A DNA stretch of 64,000 nt from Rhodospirillales bacterium. GTDB taxonomy: Bacteria; Pseudomonadota; Alphaproteobacteria; Rhodospirillales; WMHbin7. Below are positions 11,200-37,315 of this stretch, in pieces. Below the pieces are notes generated by a model, which worked only from the letters and a program-made list of their open reading frames with translations, ran no database searches and was not told the origin of the DNA. Position numbers and translations under genes: made by a program. The stretch lies in the NCBI GenBank assembly GCA_016214125.1, contig JACRPC010000031.1, positions 1-64,000 of the forward strand, given 5' to 3'. Numbering within the stretch: position 1 is the stretch's first letter; each line of letters begins with the position of its first letter.

Positions 11200-14100
11200 C
11201 TATTTGATTTCGGTCAATACCGGTCCTTCGGTCCAAATAAGAAAAGTTCGGATCGGCCGCTCGGGCCAAATTCCGGCCGCCAAGGCGCGATAGGCCTGAA
11301 GCTGGTGACGATAGGCTTCGGGGATCGCGTCCTCGGCTCGGGGCGGAAGGCGGTCGGTCTTGTAATCGGCGATCCAGACCGCATCGGGCAGAACGGCCAG
11401 GCGGTCGATCCGGCCGCGGATCACCCGCTCGCCCACCTGGCCGACGATCGGCGCCTCGGCCTGCGAGCGGGGTCCGAACAGGGGTGCCCAATCGGGATGG
11501 TCCAACACCGCCAGCGCCGCCTCCAACATTTCCGTGCGGGCCGCGGCGTCGAGATCGCCGGCCTGGCGGTCAAGAAAGCGTCGGCCCAGCCGGGCGCGGT
11601 CGGCGGGCGCCCGATCGGGCAGGGTCTGCAACAGGCGATGGATAAGCTGGCCGCGCCGGTAGCGGGCGCTGCCCTCGGGCGCCAGCGGCGAGAGGGGCGG
11701 CGGCGCCGCCAAAGCGGGCCGCGAGGGGATCAGGGGCTTGGCCGGTTTGGGCTCGGGCGGCGCCGGCCGGTCGGCCCAGGCGGGCAGGGCGGGCGGCGGC
11801 GGCGGAGCCGGCGGCCCGAGGGGCATTTCGCCCTCCGGGCGCGCGCCCTCGACCACCCAGATCGGGCCGCCCGGCCAGGCCCGATCGGCGGCCAGCTCCG
11901 GGCTTTCGACGGCGCGGCCGATCCGTTCCAGCCCCAGGCGGACGCGGTCGTGCCAATTGCCGTCGGGGGCCCGCCGGTTGGTATCCCAGCCGCAGACGAT
12001 CAGCCGGTCGGCCGCCCGGGTCATGGCGACATAGAGCAGACGGTTGGCTTCCCGCCCATCGGCGGCCTTGGCCTGGTCGCGGGCCGCCTGACTTTGCCGG
12101 TCGCGCCAGGTCGCGGCGGGGGCCCACAGAGGCAGAGCCGCCTCGCCCGCACCGCTCCACACCAGGGCGGAACCCTGACCCATCTGGCCCCTTGTGTCGG
12201 GCAAGATAACGATCGGCGCCTCCAACCCCTTGGCGCCATGCACGGTCATGATGCGCACCGCGTCGGCCTCGCCGGTTTCCGGATCGCGCTTGATTTCGGT
12301 GGCGCCGCCCTCCAGCCAGGCCAGGAAGCCCTGCAGGCTGGCCGGGTGGCGGGCTTCGAAGGCCAGCGCCAGGTTGAGGAATTCGTCGATCGGCTCGCCG
12401 GCTTCCGGCCCCAGCGCCGCCAACAGCCTTTTCCGTCCGCCGCCCGGCCCCAGGAGCCTGGCGTAGAGATCGTGGGGCGAGCGCCAATCGGCCTCGGCCA
12501 GGAAGCCCGCCAGGCTTGCCAAGGCATCGCCGAAAGGCGGGCGATCCTTGGCGTCCTCGAGGGCGGCCCACAAGCGGCCCTCGCGCCCATGCGCCAGATC
12601 GAACAGATCGTCCTCGCCAAGCCCCACCAGGGGCGATTTCAGAACCGCGGCCAGCGCCAGATCGTCCTCGGGCAAAAGGGCGACCCGGCCCAGCGCCATC
12701 AAATCCATCACCGCCATCGCCTCGGTCAGCACCAGCCGGTCGACGCCGGCCACCGGCACCTCAAGCGCCTTCAATTCGCGCACCAGATCGACGACGAAGG
12801 CGTTGCGCCGGCGCACCAGCACCAGAATGTCGCCGGGCCGGGCGGCGCGCCGGCAGGATGGCAGAGGCTCGCGGCCGATCATCGCCTTGATATGGCGCGC
12901 CAGCAGTCCGGCCAGACGGGCGCGGGGCGAATCGCCCGCCACCCGCTCGACCGGCGGCTTCCAGGGCTCGGGCTGATCGGCGTCCTTGGGTTGGATCGGC
13001 GGCCAAAGCTCGACCCGTCCGCCCGCCGTCTGGCGATGGGCAAGATGACGCGGATAGCCCTGGCCGAGATCGAGGCCGTCGCGCGCCTTGGGATCGTCAA
13101 ACACCGCATCGACCGCCTGCAAGAGCGCCGGGGCGGCGCGGAAGCTCACCGCCAGCCCCACGGTGCGCCAGCCATGGCCGGCCTTGGGCAGCCGGTCCTC
13201 CAACATTAGGCGCATCGATTCGAATTCCTGGGGATCGGCGCCCTGGAAACCGTAGATCGATTGCTTGACGTCGCCGACCGCGAAGATGGTGCGGGTCGGC
13301 CGCTCAGCCCCTTGGCCGGCGAACATCTCGGCGACCAGGGCGCGGGCCACCGCCCACTGGTCGGGATTGGTGTCCTGGGCCTCGTCGATCAGGATGTGGT
13401 CGATGCCGCCATCGAGCTTGTAGAGAACCCAGGCGGCGCCCTCTTCGATCAGCCGCCTGGCCGCCAAGATGAGATCGTCGTAATCGAGCCGCGCCAGGCC
13501 GGCCTTGGCCCGGCGGTAATCCTCAAGAATGGCGCCGCCCAGGGTGAGCAGGGCGGCGGTCGCCTGGCGGGTAAGCGCCGCCTTCTCGCGCTCGCGCAGT
13601 TGGGCCAGCCGGTCGGCCTCGGTTTGCAGCGCCGCCTCCAGACCGTCCCAGGCCTTGATGGCCTCCTTGGTGGCGGGGCGGGCGAAGGGCTGGCCGCTCT
13701 TGGTCAGGAAGGCGCCCTGATAGTCGGCGAAGCGCGCCGCCCTTGCCTCGGGATCGGCGGCCAGCCAGGCGGCGATGGCCCGGCCCTTGTCTTTGTCCTT
13801 CGCGCTTCCCCGTTCCAGCGCCGCTACCGCTTGGCGTAAAGCGGCGGCGGCGAAGCGCGCCTCGGCGCAGCCGGCCGCGATCATGGCCTCGGGCGTCTCG
13901 CCGGGATCGAGCCCAAGCCGACGCTCGATGGCGCCCATCAGCCCGTCAAGGCCATGATGGCGTTCGATCAGGCGGGCCAGCCGCCCGCTTTGGCGGGCCA
14001 ACTCGCCCAAAAGATCGGGGAAGTTGCGGGCGTGCAGCCGGCCGGTGACGATGTCGAGCGCCTGGGCGAGCGCCGGATCGATCGTGGGCCTGGCGCGGGC

Positions 14101-29263: not shown

Positions 29264-29752
29264 TTAGTCGCAGCGCGCCTGGCAGGCGGTGCCGTCGGGG
29301 CCGCAATCGGCTTTTTCGACCGTGCACGGCGTCTTGGAGCGCCGCGTCAGCGCCACGTCCTTGGGATAGGCGCAGACCAGCTTGACGAGCGCGCCCTGGC
29401 GGCTTGCCGCCATGGTGAAGGGTTTCAGCGTCCGCACCGTTTCGGGGGCCAGGCTGCAGGAGACATAGCCCTGGAAGGCGCCGTCGGCCGATTCCCACAG
29501 CACGATGTTCTTGAGATCGCGGTAGCGCTCGAAGGCGGTGCAGGTGACGTTGTCGTTCTCGTACATGCGCCGGTCGTCGCCGCAATAGCCGAGATAGGAA
29601 TAGCGAAGCTGGGCCTCGGTCGGGCAATCGCCCACCGGCCGGGCTTGGGCCAGATCGGGACAGGCGACGGTCTCGGCCGCCCGGGCGGGCTCAAGGGCGG
29701 CTAAGAAGGCGAGCAGCGCGGCAAGAACGAGAACAAGGCGACGCGGCATCAT
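29264..29752 (-). CDS. hypothetical secreted cysteine-rich protein
   Basis: A 162-residue protein with a clear signal peptide (LVLVLAALLAFLAALEPARA). The mature part has ten cysteines in regular spacing (VACPD, GDCPT, LGYCGDD, VTCTA, VSCSL, LVCAY, TPCTV, ADCGP, TACQARC), so a disulfide-rich fold in the periplasm is likely. No family recognised. The start overlaps the stop of the d1-like propeller gene upstream (ATGA), so the pair is co-translated and may share a denitrification-linked role. Its 3' end is duplicated at 28735-28899. Confidence 0.7.
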   Translation of the reverse strand: MMPRRLVLVLAALLAFLAALEPARAAETVACPDLAQARPVGDCPTEAQLRYSYLGYCGDDRRMYENDNVTCTAFERYRDLKNIVLWESADGAFQGYVSCSLAPETVRTLKPFTMAASRQGALVKLVCAYPKDVALTRRSKTPCTVEKADCGPDGTACQARCD

Positions 29753-31038
29753 CGGGCGATCTCCGGGCGGGGAAAGGCGGCAACCAGGGTCAGGATATCG
29801 GCAAGCTCCAGGCGCTTCACCGGTTTTTGACCGGCGGTGTCGAAAGTGGCCACGCCGCCGGCCGGTCCCTCGATCACCGCATAGATCAGGCGGCCCCGGT
29901 CCGCCAAAAGGATCGGCCCCAGCGTGGCGCCGGCCACGGGCCGCAAAAGCGCCAGGCGCTGGCGGCTCGCCGGATCGAGAATCTCGATCGCGTCGCGCAG
30001 CGGTCCGGCGAAGCCGCTGGCGAAAACCGGTCCGCCCTCGCCATCCACCGCCAGGAAGCGCGCCGGCGCGGCGAGCGGCAGGCTGCCAAGCACCTGCCAG
30101 TGCCGGCGGTCGAGCATGACCAGTTCGGCCCTGCCCAGCACGGGAACGATCATCGCCGGATGGGCGTGAAAGGCAACCGGCCGGGCGGCGGCGTAAGCCA
30201 GCCGCAAATCGGCGGGAATTCGGGCCGCCAGCCGGCGGGCGTCGAGATTGTAGATGGCGCCGCCCGAACCGTCGACCGCGGCGCCGCCGATCTCGACGCC
30301 GTCGGGGCTAAGAAAGAAGGCACCCAGCGCCGCCTGCGCCTTGGTGCGCCGACGCGCGAAGGGCTGCGTCTCGCCCACCGCCTCCTCCAGGCCCTTCTCG
30401 AAGGAATGGACCATGCCGGAATAGACGGGCGGGGCGAGGGCATCGTGGGATAGTTCCCAAATTTCGGCGATCTCGGGCAGAAGGGCTACGAAGCTGGCGC
30501 GCCCGGGCACCGTTTGCACGGCGCCCGCGCTTGAAGGCTGGCCGCGATCCGAGCGGGCGGGGATGACGCGGAACAGCTCCAGCTCGGGCGCCCGCAGCGC
30601 CACCAACTGGCCGGGCCGGTCCAGGGCCGCCAGCAGCCAGGCGCCGTCCTCGGACAGGGCCAGGCCGCTGGCCGCGCGTCCCACCCGGATGCGTCCGCTG
30701 GCGCGCAGGCTCGCCAGATCGATGCGCTCGATCCAGCCATCCTGGCCGATCATGTAGGCGAAGCGGCCGTCGGGCGCCACAAGCGGCGGTCCCGCCGGCG
30801 GTCCCGGCAAGGGCAGGCTGGCGGCGATCGTCAGGGTCGCCGCCTTGATGACGATCAGACGGGGGTCGCCCCCCGCAATCGCCAGCAGGCGATCGGGCAG
30901 GGGTTGGGCACGGGCGGGCGCCAGAGCGGAAACGGCGCGGCTGGCCCCGATCGCCTTGGCGTCCCAGGAATCGGTCGCCTGGGCGGTGAAAGGGCCCGAC
31001 AGGAACAAGGCGGCAAGGAGGATTCGCAAGATCGTCAC
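29749..31038 (-). CDS. NirN/NirF-like d1-type beta-propeller protein, no heme c domain
   Basis: A 429-residue protein with a signal peptide (ILLAALFLSGPFTAQA) and repeated propeller blades (RFAYMIGQDGWIERIDL, IVPVLGRAELVMLDRRHWQVLG). The segment VQTVPGRASFVALLPEIAEIWEL...SGMVHSFEKGLEE aligns with NirN (AVYTAPPRQSFIAALKDLKELWEI...RGLVHSYEKGM). It lacks the CxxCH domain of NirN and NirS. The proximal heme d1 His seen in NirS (YAVHISR), NirN (ALHGG) and NirF (LSHASM) is replaced by a Pro/Gly run. It is a divergent, probably periplasmic NirN paralogue, possibly a chaperone or sensor. Divergent from nirT. Confidence 0.75.
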   Translation of the reverse strand: MTILRILLAALFLSGPFTAQATDSWDAKAIGASRAVSALAPARAQPLPDRLLAIAGGDPRLIVIKAATLTIAASLPLPGPPAGPPLVAPDGRFAYMIGQDGWIERIDLASLRASGRIRVGRAASGLALSEDGAWLLAALDRPGQLVALRAPELELFRVIPARSDRGQPSSAGAVQTVPGRASFVALLPEIAEIWELSHDALAPPVYSGMVHSFEKGLEEAVGETQPFARRRTKAQAALGAFFLSPDGVEIGGAAVDGSGGAIYNLDARRLAARIPADLRLAYAAARPVAFHAHPAMIVPVLGRAELVMLDRRHWQVLGSLPLAAPARFLAVDGEGGPVFASGFAGPLRDAIEILDPASRQRLALLRPVAGATLGPILLADRGRLIYAVIEGPAGGVATFDTAGQKPVKRLELADILTLVAAFPRPEIAR

Positions 31039-31205: not shown

Positions 31206-31219
31206 TTGACCATCATCAA
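31206..31219. promoter_or_regulatory. FNR/DNR-like box upstream of nirT
   Basis: TTGACCATCATCAA, one mismatch from the FNR/DNR consensus TTGAT-N4-ATCAA. It lies 122 bp before the nirT ATG and about 170 bp before the divergent propeller gene, in a 303-bp intergenic region. The same 14-mer occurs at 35599-35612. Confidence 0.7.
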
Positions 31220-31341
31220 GGAATTCCCAGCCCAATATTGTGGATATTTCGCAGGCGCGAAAGGAACCGGATGGGGCGGCCGATGGCGGCCAATCCGAAT
31301 TGGCGATGGCAAGGCGGCGGCAAGGAAGGAGCGATAAGCCC

Positions 31342-33069
31342 ATGAGCACCGAAACCCTGATCGGGCGTCTTCTCAAGCGGAAGTATCTTGGCGCCTCGTT
31401 GGGCGGCGCGCTGGTGCTGTTCGCGGCGGGCATCGTCTTCTGGGGCGGCTTCAACACGGTCCTCGAAGCCACCAACACCATGCCATTCTGCACCGGCTGC
31501 CATGTGATGGAATCGACCGTCTACCAGGAGTACAAGCACACCATCCACTACGAGAACCGCACCGGCGTGCGCGCCGGCTGCTCGGATTGCCATGTGCCCA
31601 ATCCTTGGGTCTACAAGTTCCTGCGCAAGATCCAGGCCTCGAACGAGATCCTGCATTGGCTGATCGGCTCGATCAACACGCCCGAGAAGTTCGAGGACAA
31701 GCGGCTCACGCTGGCCAAGAACGTCTGGAAATCGATGAAGGACACCGATTCCCGCGAATGCCGCAACTGCCATTCCAACGAAGGTATGAGCAAGGTGGTG
31801 CAGAAGCCGCGCGCCGCCAAGCAGCACGAGACCATGGTCAAGGAAGGCCAGACCTGCATCGATTGCCACAAGGGCATCGCGCATCGGCCGATCCACAAGG
31901 CGCTGCCCGACGATTACGCCGTCTATGACGGCAAGGCCGACCGCGCGATCAAGCTGCCGGTGGTCTCGGCCGAGGCGATGAAGGCCGAAATGCTGGGCGG
32001 CCGCCTGACGCCCTTGCCGGCCGGCGCGGCGGCTCCGGCGGCTGCGGCCGCGGCTCCGGCTCCGGCACCCGCTCCGGCGGCGACCGCGGCCCCCGCCGCG
32101 TCGGGCGGCGCGCCGGTGGGCAACGCCCCGGTCAATTGGGACAAGGCGGCGGCGTTGGATATTCCCTTCTTCTATCCCGGCCAGACGGGTCTGGAGTGGA
32201 TCTTGAAAGGCACCGATCATGGCGGTGCCCGGCCGGTGCGCCGGGGCGGCGACCGCTGCTTCGAATGCCACGGCAAGGAACAGCCGGCGATGGGCGAGAA
32301 GATGGCGACCGGCGCCAAGGCCGAGGCGGCGCCGATTCCCAAGAAGCGGGCGGCGGTCGCCGTCCAGCTCAAGGCGGCGCATGACGGCAAGAATCTCTAT
32401 CTGCGCTTCCAGTGGCCCGACGCGCCGCACACGCCGGCGCCCTTCGCCCCGGGCGGCAAGATGGACGCCGACAACCCAATCAAGTTCGCCATGATGATTA
32501 CCGGCACCGGCATCGATCTGGGCGAGCAGGGCGGCTGCTGGGTCACCTGCCACCAGGATTCGCGCTACATGGCGGAAGCGCCGAAGGCCGAAGGCATTTC
32601 GGCCGACCTCAAGGCGAAGCTCGGCATCACCGACGGCCCCACCAAATATCTGGCGGAAAGCCGCACGGCGATCGAGCTGGCCAACGCGCCGCGCGGCGGC
32701 TGGGACAAGGTGAAGCCCCAGGCCGATCTCGACGCGCTTCTGAAGGCCGGCACCCTCATGGAACTGTCGCGCTTCAAGAGCGGCAAGGGCCAAAGCGAAT
32801 CGGGCTATGTGCTGGAGAAGCGGGTGATGGAGGGCGGCGTGCCCACCACCTATCAGGGCGGTCTGGCGAACGGCGTCTGGACGGTGGTGATGACCCGTCC
32901 GCTGGTGGCCGGCAAGCCGGGCTTCCAGGATCTGGCGCCGGGCAAGCTCTATACGGTGGGCTTCGCGCTGCATGACGATTTCACCAGCGCCCGCTTCCAC
33001 CATGTCTCGCTCGAATACAAGCTGGGGCTCGACAATGCCGAGGCCCAGATCAACGCCGTCAAGCAATAG
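31342..33069 (+). CDS. nirT: NirT/NapC-family tetraheme cytochrome fused to a cytochrome c-552/DMSO-reductase-like heme domain
   Basis: A 575-residue membrane-anchored multiheme protein. An N-terminal helix (about 17-36) is followed by four CxxCH sites (CTGCH 50, CSDCH 80, CRNCH 140, CIDCH 172), the NapC/NirT pattern for quinol oxidation. An Ala/Pro linker (about 225-260) leads to a C-terminal domain with a fifth CFECH (306) and a CWVTCH (399), a CX3CH variant. That part (LYLRFQWPDAPHT, VWTVVMTRPLV, YTVGFALHDDF) resembles ethylbenzene-dehydrogenase-type heme-binding domains. Normal NirT is about 200 residues. It would pass electrons from quinol to the periplasmic NirS. RBS AAGGAAGGAG; start at the ATG at 31342. 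Confidence 0.87.
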   Translation: MSTETLIGRLLKRKYLGASLGGALVLFAAGIVFWGGFNTVLEATNTMPFCTGCHVMESTVYQEYKHTIHYENRTGVRAGCSDCHVPNPWVYKFLRKIQASNEILHWLIGSINTPEKFEDKRLTLAKNVWKSMKDTDSRECRNCHSNEGMSKVVQKPRAAKQHETMVKEGQTCIDCHKGIAHRPIHKALPDDYAVYDGKADRAIKLPVVSAEAMKAEMLGGRLTPLPAGAAAPAAAAAAPAPAPAPAATAAPAASGGAPVGNAPVNWDKAAALDIPFFYPGQTGLEWILKGTDHGGARPVRRGGDRCFECHGKEQPAMGEKMATGAKAEAAPIPKKRAAVAVQLKAAHDGKNLYLRFQWPDAPHTPAPFAPGGKMDADNPIKFAMMITGTGIDLGEQGGCWVTCHQDSRYMAEAPKAEGISADLKAKLGITDGPTKYLAESRTAIELANAPRGGWDKVKPQADLDALLKAGTLMELSRFKSGKGQSESGYVLEKRVMEGGVPTTYQGGLANGVWTVVMTRPLVAGKPGFQDLAPGKLYTVGFALHDDFTSARFHHVSLEYKLGLDNAEAQINAVKQ

Positions 33070-33092: not shown

Positions 33093-33530
33093 ATGCGATG
33101 GTTGGGCGGGCTCGGCCTGGCGGTCGGGATGCTTGGGGGCGGGACGCTGGCGGGCGGCGTTGCCCGGGCCCAGGCGCCCGACGCCTTCACCATCGGCATC
33201 TGCGCCGAGGCCGAACTCGAAGCCGCCAAGCAGGGGCTGGCGAAATCGGGCCCCAGCGCCGACGGCAAGGGCTTCACCATCCTCATGTACAAATACCGCT
33301 TCTGCCCGCAAGCGGCGACGCTGGCCGTGGGCACCGCCGTCACCTGGATCAATGTCGACAAGCGCACCAGCCACAGCGTCTGGCTCAAAGAGGCCGGGCG
33401 GCCGGAATCGGACCGGCTCTTCAACGCCGAAACGGTGACGATGGTCTTCGACAAACCCGGCACCTACCGCTATCTCTGCGGCCCACATTGGGAAAAAGAG
33501 GCGATGTCAGGAACACTCCTTATACGGTAA
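33093..33530 (+). CDS. secreted cupredoxin (plastocyanin-like)
   Basis: A 145-residue exported blue-copper protein. After a signal peptide (LGGGTLAGGVARA) come strands ending in TSHSVWL (His ligand) and YLCGPHWEKEAM, giving Cys, His and Met ligands of a type-1 copper site. It sits 23 bp after nirT and upstream of nirS, so it probably serves as electron carrier between NirT and NirS, a role played elsewhere by cytochrome c551 or pseudoazurin. No nirM-type cytochrome gene is seen in the locus. Confidence 0.82.
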   Translation: MRWLGGLGLAVGMLGGGTLAGGVARAQAPDAFTIGICAEAELEAAKQGLAKSGPSADGKGFTILMYKYRFCPQAATLAVGTAVTWINVDKRTSHSVWLKEAGRPESDRLFNAETVTMVFDKPGTYRYLCGPHWEKEAMSGTLLIR

Positions 33531-33608: not shown

Positions 33609-33744
33609 AGAGCCCAAAGAATTTCCAGGATTATATTTCATTTTGTTATATGAGAGATCGACCCATTGGCTTAGCTTGGCGGTCCGGATTCCGATTGGCC
33701 CGCGTCGTCGTCATCGTTTTTGAAACTGCAAGGGGAGTGTGAGC

Positions 33745-35391
33745 ATGTCGAAATCATCCCGTTACGCCGTGATGCTGGCCGCCATGACCTTGGCCGCCGG
33801 CAGCGCCTTTGCCCAGGCGCCGGCTCCGGCCGCCCCGGCAGCGCCGCCGACCATGACCAAGGAAGCCAAAGCCGCCAGCGCCAAGGCCTATTTCGAACGC
33901 TGCGCCGGCTGCCACGGCATCCTGCGCAAGGGCGCCACCGGCAAGAATCTCGAGCCGGAAGCGACCTTGAAGCTGGGTCAGGCCCGACTGGAAAAGATCA
34001 TCGCCCTGGGCACCGATGGCGGCATGGTCAACTATGACGACATCATGTCGAAGGACGAGATCCGCGACATGGCGACCTACATCCAGACCACGCCCGACGT
34101 GCCGCCCGAGTGGGGCATGAAGGACATGAAGGAGTCCTGGAAGGTCCATGTGCCGGTCGACAAGCGCCCGACCAAGCCGATGAACACGGTGAACCTGAAG
34201 AACGTCTTCTCGGTCACGTTGCGCGACACCGGCGAAGTGGCGATGATCGACGGCGACACCAAGAAGATCTGGGGCATCGTCAAGACCGGCTACGCCGTGC
34301 ACATCTCGCGCGTCTCCTTCTCGGGCCGCTATGTGTACGTTATCGGCCGCGACGGCCGCCTCGACCTCGTCGATCTTTGGTTCGAGAAGCCGACCGCGGT
34401 CGCCACCATCAAGGTGGGCATCGACGCCCGTTCGGTCGACACCTCGAAGTTCAAGGGCTACGAGGACAAGTACGCGGTGGTCGGCTCCTATTGGCCGCCG
34501 CAATACGCCATTCTCGACGGGCTCACCCTCGAGCCCAAGAAGATCGTCTCCACCCGCAGCCAGACCGTCGATGGCGAATACCATCCCGAGCCGCGCGTGG
34601 CCTCGATCGTCTCCTCGCAGGCCAAGCCCGAGTGGGTCATCAACATCAAGGAGACCGGCCTCATCAAGCTGGTCGACTACACCGACATCAAGAACTTGAA
34701 GGAAACCACCATCGAATCCGCCAAGTTCCTGCATGACGGCGGTTGGGACGCCACCAAGCGCTACTTCCTGGTGGCCGCCAACAACTCGAACAAGGTGGCG
34801 GTGGTCGACACCAAGACCGGCAAACTGGCGGCGCTCGTCGACACCAAGGCGCGTCCGCACCCCGGCCGCGGCGCCAACTTCGTCCACCCCAAGCATGGTC
34901 CGGTCTGGGCCACCTCGCATCTGGGCGCCGAAGTCATCACCTTGATCGGCACCGATCCGGTCAAGAACAAGGACAAGGCCTGGAAGGTCGTGGAAGAGCT
35001 GAAGATGCACGGCTCGGGCTCGCTGTTCGTCAAGACCCATCCGAAGTCGACCAATCTGTGGGCCGACGCCCCCCTGATGCCGGAGCCGGACAAGGCCGAA
35101 TCGGTCACCGTCTACGACATCAAGAATCTGGGCAAGGGTCCGGAGACCATCAACGTCGCCAAGATGGCGGGCCTGCCCGAGACCAAGGCGGTCAAGCGCG
35201 TCGTCCATGGCGAGTACAACGAGACGGGCGACGAGATCTGGTTCTCGATCTGGGCCGGCAAGACCGATCCGTCGGCGATCGTCGTCATCGACGACAAGAC
35301 CCGCAAGATGAAGACGGTGATCAAGGATCCCAAGCTGATCACGCCGACCGGCAAATTCAACATCTACAACACCCAGCACGATATCTACTAG
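33745..35391 (+). CDS. nirS: cytochrome cd1 nitrite reductase NirS, copy 1
   Basis: Periplasmic dissimilatory nitrite reductase (nitrite to NO). 548 residues: signal peptide, an Ala/Pro-rich stretch, cytochrome c domain with CAGCH (53-57), then the eight-bladed d1 propeller. The d1 ligand His is in TGYAVHISR; the two catalytic histidines correspond to FLHDGG and [10 protein letters not shown]. Start: AAGGGGAG is 8 bases before the ATG at 33745; a GTG at 33739 is possible. It has its own FNR-like box and terminator, separate from nirS2. Confidence 0.96.
   Translation: MSKSSRYAVMLAAMTLAAGSAFAQAPAPAAPAAPPTMTKEAKAASAKAYFERCAGCHGILRKGATGKNLEPEATLKLGQARLEKIIALGTDGGMVNYDDIMSKDEIRDMATYIQTTPDVPPEWGMKDMKESWKVHVPVDKRPTKPMNTVNLKNVFSVTLRDTGEVAMIDGDTKKIWGIVKTGYAVHISRVSFSGRYVYVIGRDGRLDLVDLWFEKPTAVATIKVGIDARSVDTSKFKGYEDKYAVVGSYWPPQYAILDGLTLEPKKIVSTRSQTVDGEYHPEPRVASIVSSQAKPEWVINIKETGLIKLVDYTDIKNLKETTIESAKFLHDGGWDATKRYFLVAANNSNKVAVVDTKTGKLAALVDTKARPHPGRGANFVHPKHGPVWATSHLGAEVITLIGTDPVKNKDKAWKVVEELKMHGSGSLFVKTHPKSTNLWADAPLMPEPDKAESVTVYDIKNLGKGPETINVAKMAGLPETKAVKRVVHGEYNETGDEIWFSIWAGKTDPSAIVVIDDKTRKMKTVIKDPKLITPTGKFNIYNTQHDIY

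Positions 35392-35635: not shown

Positions 35636-37315
<1,680 letters not shown>

Follow-up and report, generated by a model that had tools for sequence, protein, structure and literature searches.

The window, by which we mean the whole 64-kb stretch of DNA analysed here, encodes a protein in which a NapC/NirT-type domain and an EB_dh domain carrying two further c-type heme motifs are joined in one chain, beside genes for a cupredoxin and for the cytochrome cd1 nitrite reductase NirS. The protein probably unites a quinol dehydrogenase with a periplasmic relay as a dedicated donor to certain kinds of NirS; its heme loading and electron route are predicted. Its parts are known, and in joining them it represents a conserved variant, not a new module; the more interesting part is its association with particular NirS lineages. 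A search of open-licence full texts turned up no description of the fusion or of its association with NirS.

The fusion gene and its neighbours in the window

The translation of the fusion gene runs through a single frame with no internal stop (Table 1), and the Pfam domains confirm the original prediction of a NirT with four CxxCH motifs that continues through an Ala/Pro linker into an extra domain. Cytochrom_NNT (PF03264) scores 233.9 bits against a cut-off of 24.1, and a hydrophobic stretch at about residues 16-37, seen by eye in the translation, provides the N-terminal anchor expected of the family. TIGR02161 gives 254 bits, below its cut-off of 310.6. By sequence, the N-terminal part is a member of the NapC/NirT family, and it is predicted to oxidize quinol. 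Six heme-type motifs are spread along the chain, beginning at residues 50 (CTGCH), 80 (CSDCH), 140 (CRNCH), 172 (CIDCH), 306 (CFECH) and 399 (CWVTCH). An in-frame GTG at 31240 would lengthen the protein by 34 residues; we favour the ATG at 31342, since the alignments to the proteins of the fused loci L001 and L003 begin at residue 1.

Known NirT proteins terminate after the fourth heme. The fusion resembles them in its anchor, its four CxxCH motifs and a gene adjoining nirS, and differs in the roughly 310 additional residues past the linker region and the two extra heme motifs. In TorC, too, a NapC-type domain is followed by an additional heme domain, a layout that the fusion shares. Membership of the TorC family itself was rejected: TIGR02162 covers residues 27-200 only (profile positions 24-192 of 387), and its score of 216.9 bits falls short of the cut-off, 478.2.

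Table 1. Coordinates of the fusion gene, its parts and neighbouring features in the window
Feature	Position	Strand	Evidence or remark
nirT-EB_dh fusion gene	31342..33069	+	575 aa, six c-type heme motifs
NapC/NirT domain (residues 23-183), anchor and four CxxCH	31408..31890	+	PF03264, E 1.2e-69; own-genome search
Ala/Pro-rich linker, about residues 218-261	31993..32124	+	Translation, by eye
EB_dh domain, NapO/PcrO-like, residues 266 to about 556	32137..33009	+	PF09459; fold match to 2ivf_C and 7b04_C
Heme motif 5, CFECH, residues 306-310	32257..32271	+	C, C and H in 32/32
Heme motif 6, CWVTCH (CX3CH), residues 399-404	32536..32553	+	C, C, H and spacing in 32/32
R551-x-H553, invariant; H553 candidate distal ligand of heme 6	32992..33000	+	Both residues in 32/32
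Type-1 copper protein (plastocyanin/azurin family), candidate electron acceptor	33093..33530	+	PF00127, E 1.7e-6
NirS copy 1 (cytochrome cd1), fusion-linked lineage	33739..35391	+	PF02239, E 2.4e-146; trees
NirS copy 2, lineage without fusion link	35675..37315	+	PF02239, E 1.8e-154; trees
FNR/DNR-type box, one mismatch, upstream of fusion gene	31206..31219		Putative; motif scan

The adjacency to a cupredoxin and to NirS, claimed at the outset, holds: both genes lie downstream on the same strand, the cupredoxin gene starting 23 bases past the end of the fusion gene. The tandem nirS pair represents two NirS lineages in our trees, and copy 1 alone is of the fusion-linked kind. Scanning the window with the FNR/DNR box consensus, we found five sites with one mismatch. 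Three of these precede the fusion gene, nirS1 (33595) and nirS2 (35599); the other two are at 11204 and 30845. Sites with up to two mismatches number 25, against 9.25 expected. The putative boxes before the three genes are consistent with joint anaerobic control. Divergently from the fusion, the window also encodes a cytochrome d1-domain protein without CxxCH (29749-31038, minus strand).

The EB_dh domain and its CX3CH motif

The original prediction likened the C-terminal part to EB_dh domains, and Pfam agrees: the better of two stretches matching PF09459 spans residues 266-499, with 112.7 bits against a cut-off of 33.3 (E 3.6e-32). Structure prediction, which had been proposed as a check, answered in part. 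A model of the full-length fusion built from five sequences was unusable (pLDDT 38.4). That of the EB_dh domain, also from five sequences, is weak, with a mean pLDDT of 50.3 and a pTM of 0.60, exceeding 80 in places in the core strands and falling below 50 in both motif loops; it nevertheless matches EbdC (2ivf_C; Z 13.2, 182 residues, rmsd 4.8) and NxrC (7b04_C; Z 12.9, 171 residues, rmsd 3.8), the next row being at Z 9.9. Judged by its sequence and by the β-sandwich fold of this weak model, the C-terminal domain is an EB_dh domain.

CFECH and CWVTCH, the latter with its three-residue gap, are present as had been described, and both are kept in 32 of 32 relatives. The alignment comprises 19 fused and 13 separate domains, all matching the EB_dh family; the script was set to discard rows lacking CX3CH and discarded none. 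We left out L021-L023, which match over the last ~70 residues only and have neither motif, and L046, a 129-aa fragment. C306, C309, H310, C399, C403, H404, H544, R551 and H553 are invariant throughout. CX3CH is also kept in the copies from G793, G781 and G792, and across alpha- and gammaproteobacterial records. The extra heme motifs are not chance. DUF1924 is matched by one of the 32 relatives, and the CFECH segment of the fusion (residues 306-330; 32257-32331) is weakly similar to cytochrome c'' (1e8e, E 0.0092). At two loci, L059 (7460-9157, genome G456) and L060 (7004-7642, genome G016), the NapC domain has an additional CX3CH as its first heme motif, CSSTCH and CTTSCH, respectively.

The gamma subunits EbdC and NxrC share the EB_dh fold, but they are described as holding a single heme b, ligated by Met and Lys, within a molybdenum enzyme (PMC8387239); the fusion has two covalent-type motifs and no adjoining gene for a molybdenum subunit. 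We rejected its assignment to the DMSO reductase type II gamma subunits on the strength of those two motifs and of the nir neighbours, and TIGR03477, at 23.2 bits, stays below its cut-off of 169.85. The genome does have an EB_dh protein of b-type elsewhere: it is encoded at G000:C15:27942-28724 (L007, L076), ends in a cytochrome c motif and adjoins an iron-sulfur protein that by eye is of the molybdenum-enzyme kind.

For comparison we used nine b-type gamma domains, including one from this genome. The strands flanking the CX3CH loop pair with those flanking the Met-type loop of the b-type domains; in hhalign the heme loop itself is unaligned between the two types, and the CFECH segment has no counterpart. 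In hhalign, H553 falls opposite a Lys of the b-type domain from this genome, whereas MAFFT is two residues off, and among the b-type rows this place is occupied by Lys, His or another residue. With the heme loop unpaired and the two programs differing at H553, we do not claim a Met-to-His swap residue by residue. From the pairing of the flanking strands and the weak domain model we infer that the heme-b pocket of EbdC is the probable site of the CX3CH heme, with His553 near the place of the lysine ligand.

Precedents for heme at such motifs come from other families in which CX3CH is placed elsewhere. MmcA, like the fusion, is a multiheme cytochrome with such a motif, and all seven of its motif peptides, one of them CXXXCH, were reported with the +615 Da shift of heme (PMC11024163); atypical CX3CH motifs have likewise been noted in ImcH and in some CymA homologues (PMC6295460). 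By analogy with MmcA, CX3CH can hold heme c. It could instead be that the EB_dh domain is structural, a dock between the NirT hemes and either NirS or the cupredoxin, with heme at CFECH only and CX3CH serving as a disulfide or metal site. The motif is non-standard, the gamma subunits as described in PMC8387239 bind one non-covalent heme b, and the domain model is weak around CX3CH, all of which speak for such a role. We nevertheless consider it quite improbable, given that the cysteines and the histidine are kept in all 32 domains, a disulfide having no need of His, that the CXXXCH of MmcA carries heme c by mass (PMC11024163), and that the closest described partners are termed diheme (PMC5845722).

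These partners are NapO and PcrO of Azospira suillum PS, reported to be c-type cytochromes with two hemes, homologues of the gamma subunit EbdC, and functionally redundant carriers downstream of NapC and PcrQ (PMC5845722). In the account given there, a pcrO napO double deletion abolishes anaerobic growth on nitrate or perchlorate, as does deletion of both quinol dehydrogenases. Several perchlorate islands are described as having pcrQ and pcrO (PMC4623255). Compared by description, the C-terminal domain fits NapO/PcrO in being EbdC-like, in having two c-type motifs and in going with a NapC homologue (PMC5845722), so it is a known kind of NapC-family partner. The novelty originally assigned to the C-terminal domain, which was staked on its not being a known module, is thus partly lost: the NapO/PcrO kind had been described (PMC5845722), and what differs here is that it is fused. 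The fusion shares with the NapC-NapO and PcrQ-PcrO pairs a tetraheme NapC/NirT quinol dehydrogenase and an EbdC-like diheme partner (PMC5845722, PMC4623255); by description, those pairs are two proteins working for Nap or perchlorate reductase, whereas the fusion is one chain beside NirS.

Distribution, gene order and NirS lineages

How widely the fusion occurs in nirS genomes had been raised as a question, and we addressed it in two samples. In the class sample (385 genomes) EB_dh matches occur in 15 genomes and the fusion in 8, the latter making up 8 of the 27 nirS-bearing genomes and none of the 358 others. The phylum sample (398 genomes) gave EB_dh matches in 11 and the fusion in 5, that is, 5 of 51 nirS-bearing genomes and 0 of 347 others. 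The genome of the window (G000) is counted in both; the two sets of figures are not summed, because some genomes are common to both. A reference-genome protein search returned five loci: four fused (L001-L004) and one, L005, whose NirT is unfused and follows a nirS read in two pieces, 55 bases from the contig end. Five plasmid records carry the fusion, from Ruegeria (three), Aliiroseovarius and Azospirillum brasilense, the gene being annotated as 'NapC/NirT family cytochrome c'; gene context was examined in three of them. Plasmid searches for NapO/PcrO returned the same five fused records, and 6 of 80 genomes matched in the family of G711; neither source yielded a sequence identifiable as NapO or PcrO.

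At 18 of the 19 fused loci, the fusion either adjoins nirS or has only the cupredoxin gene between itself and nirS; at the remaining one, L004, the contig ends there. A cupredoxin gene is found within 1 kb of the fusion in 18 of 19 as well, at ~650 bases in L058, and none was detected in L057. The commonest order is nirS-fusion-cupredoxin; the window, L001 and L002 have fusion-cupredoxin-nirS.

Four genomes (G402, G711, G793 and G781) have nirS, nirT and EB_dh as separate genes in that order, with ~0.8 kb between nirS and nirT in G781. This is likely the pre-fusion gene order. On the EB_dh tree the fused and separate states are explained by one change, and the branch with the 19 fused rows has support 97/96. 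Relatives with separate adjacent genes could also raise the suspicion that a frameshift or an error of assembly has made two genes look like one. That is hardly credible, as the fused frame is free of stops in 19 loci from separate records (close kin may be among them) and one NapC/NirT gene is annotated in all five plasmid records.

We considered separate EB_dh genes as markers of nap operons, which was not borne out among the loci examined. The napA gene adjoins the nirS-nirT-EB_dh cluster in G711 and G793, and the napA loci of the own genome and of G628 have NapC and no EB_dh. Among the 13 separate EB_dh loci we scanned the neighbours of five (L060, L061, L065, L066 and L069), two (L067 and L068) have nirS, and six were listed only. 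The scanned loci have xanthine-dehydrogenase-like, MtrA- or MtrB-like and FCSD-like neighbours. At L061 (6718-9322) and L066 (4875-9028), CX3CH EB_dh proteins are encoded beside a cytochrome with ten CxxCH, followed in L066 by an MtrB/PioB porin; the EB_dh module may feed extracellular electron conduits too. At L065 (7046-10759) and L069 (5343-9073), separate NapC and EB_dh genes lie beside flavoproteins, FCSD-like in L065 by Pfam and SQR-like in both by NCBIfam; L185 looks similar by eye.

Two NirS lineages carry the fusion unit, with G471 and perhaps L005 as exceptions. In a tree of 72 NirS rows, one branch separates the 20 that adjoin the fusion or the split pair from the 52 others (SH-aLRT 100). 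This single-branch picture was lost when 20 rows, three of them outgroup, were added. In the larger tree (89 NirS and three outgroup rows) the linked rows fall in two places: a clade of eight that includes NirS1 of the window (support 97), and the other 12, which form one group in the 72-row tree and a grade near the outgroup here. The linkage label still requires only three changes, and none of 500 shuffles was as low, a clustering that is favoured by the fact that some linked rows (L001-L003, L073-L075) were fetched for the fusion; the genomes of the remaining linked rows were searched whole with both queries. Several unlinked nirS loci have short flanks, and their genomes are covered by the whole-genome EB_dh searches. 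Both trees come from quick searches with SH-aLRT support only and long-branch warnings. Second copies of the same gene, the partial G344, the two pieces from L005 and the gene of G122, whose nirS is broken by an in-frame TAG (L163, 4715-6523), were kept out of them.

NirS of G471 falls among the 12 linked rows; at its locus a cupredoxin gene directly follows nirS, and neither NirT nor EB_dh is found there. A third NirS lineage (CSGCH; L153, L154, L156-L160) has a five-CxxCH NapC-family gene in the locus in 7 of 10 cases, directly adjoining nirS in four.

A predicted electron route to NirS

Placed beside a nitrite reductase, the fusion probably supplies its electrons by a short route of its own, and the genetics of NapO and PcrO offer a precedent for a relay from NapC to an EB_dh protein (PMC5845722). 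The NapC/NirT domain, in the membrane, would oxidize quinol, and electrons would pass from its four hemes across the flexible Ala/Pro linker to the NapO/PcrO-type EB_dh domain with its two c-type hemes, and thence to the neighbouring cupredoxin, the heme c domain of NirS or both, bypassing the bc1 complex. The arrangement would be TorC-like, built from NapC and NapO parts. The CX3CH heme would occupy the heme-b pocket of EbdC/NxrC on a two-cysteine tether, with His404 as proximal ligand and His553 at the place of the gamma-subunit lysine. The order of the hemes within the EB_dh domain and the acceptor partner are guesses; G471 hints at the cupredoxin as last carrier, because it keeps nirS and cupredoxin without the fusion.

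Other routes exist in the own genome, which has two further NapC-family genes, one of them in the nap locus as a separate gene ~2.4 kb after napA, and one bc1-type cytochrome b, so that a bc1 route to NirS is possible. NirS might then be fed through bc1, the fusion serving another acceptor or acting as a redox buffer and its adjacency to nirS reflecting joint regulation only. The bc1-type cytochrome b fits this, as do the absence of the fusion from G471 and the partners of related separate EB_dh genes (MtrA/MtrB-like, FCSD-like and others), whose variety marks the module as promiscuous. We regard it as rather unlikely, however, since in both samples the fused form was found only in nirS-bearing genomes, since it sits beside nirS at nearly all its loci, and since the fusion-linked rows group together on the NirS tree more than in any of the shuffles.

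Returning to a relay dedicated to NirS, its fullest version states that two NirS lineages have a dedicated, bc1-independent NirT-NapO input of six hemes, one of them a covalent, probably bis-His CX3CH heme derived from the EbdC pocket. Taken whole, this is a tentative proposal, on the doubtful side. If borne out, it would mean that an EbdC-type fold is able to carry covalent c-type hemes via CX3CH.

The identity of the carriers that supply cytochrome cd1 nitrite reductase, and the need for bc1, have been argued case by case. In the present case a single donor architecture is linked by gene order and phylogeny to particular NirS lineages, which makes the matter testable in cultured hosts that have the fused form by record: Azospirillum brasilense Sp 7, Ruegeria and Aliiroseovarius. 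The link between the fusion and NirS also suggests a purpose for the tandem nirS pair: if the proposal is true, genomes with both kinds of NirS, the own genome included, would run two electrically separate nitrite reductases.
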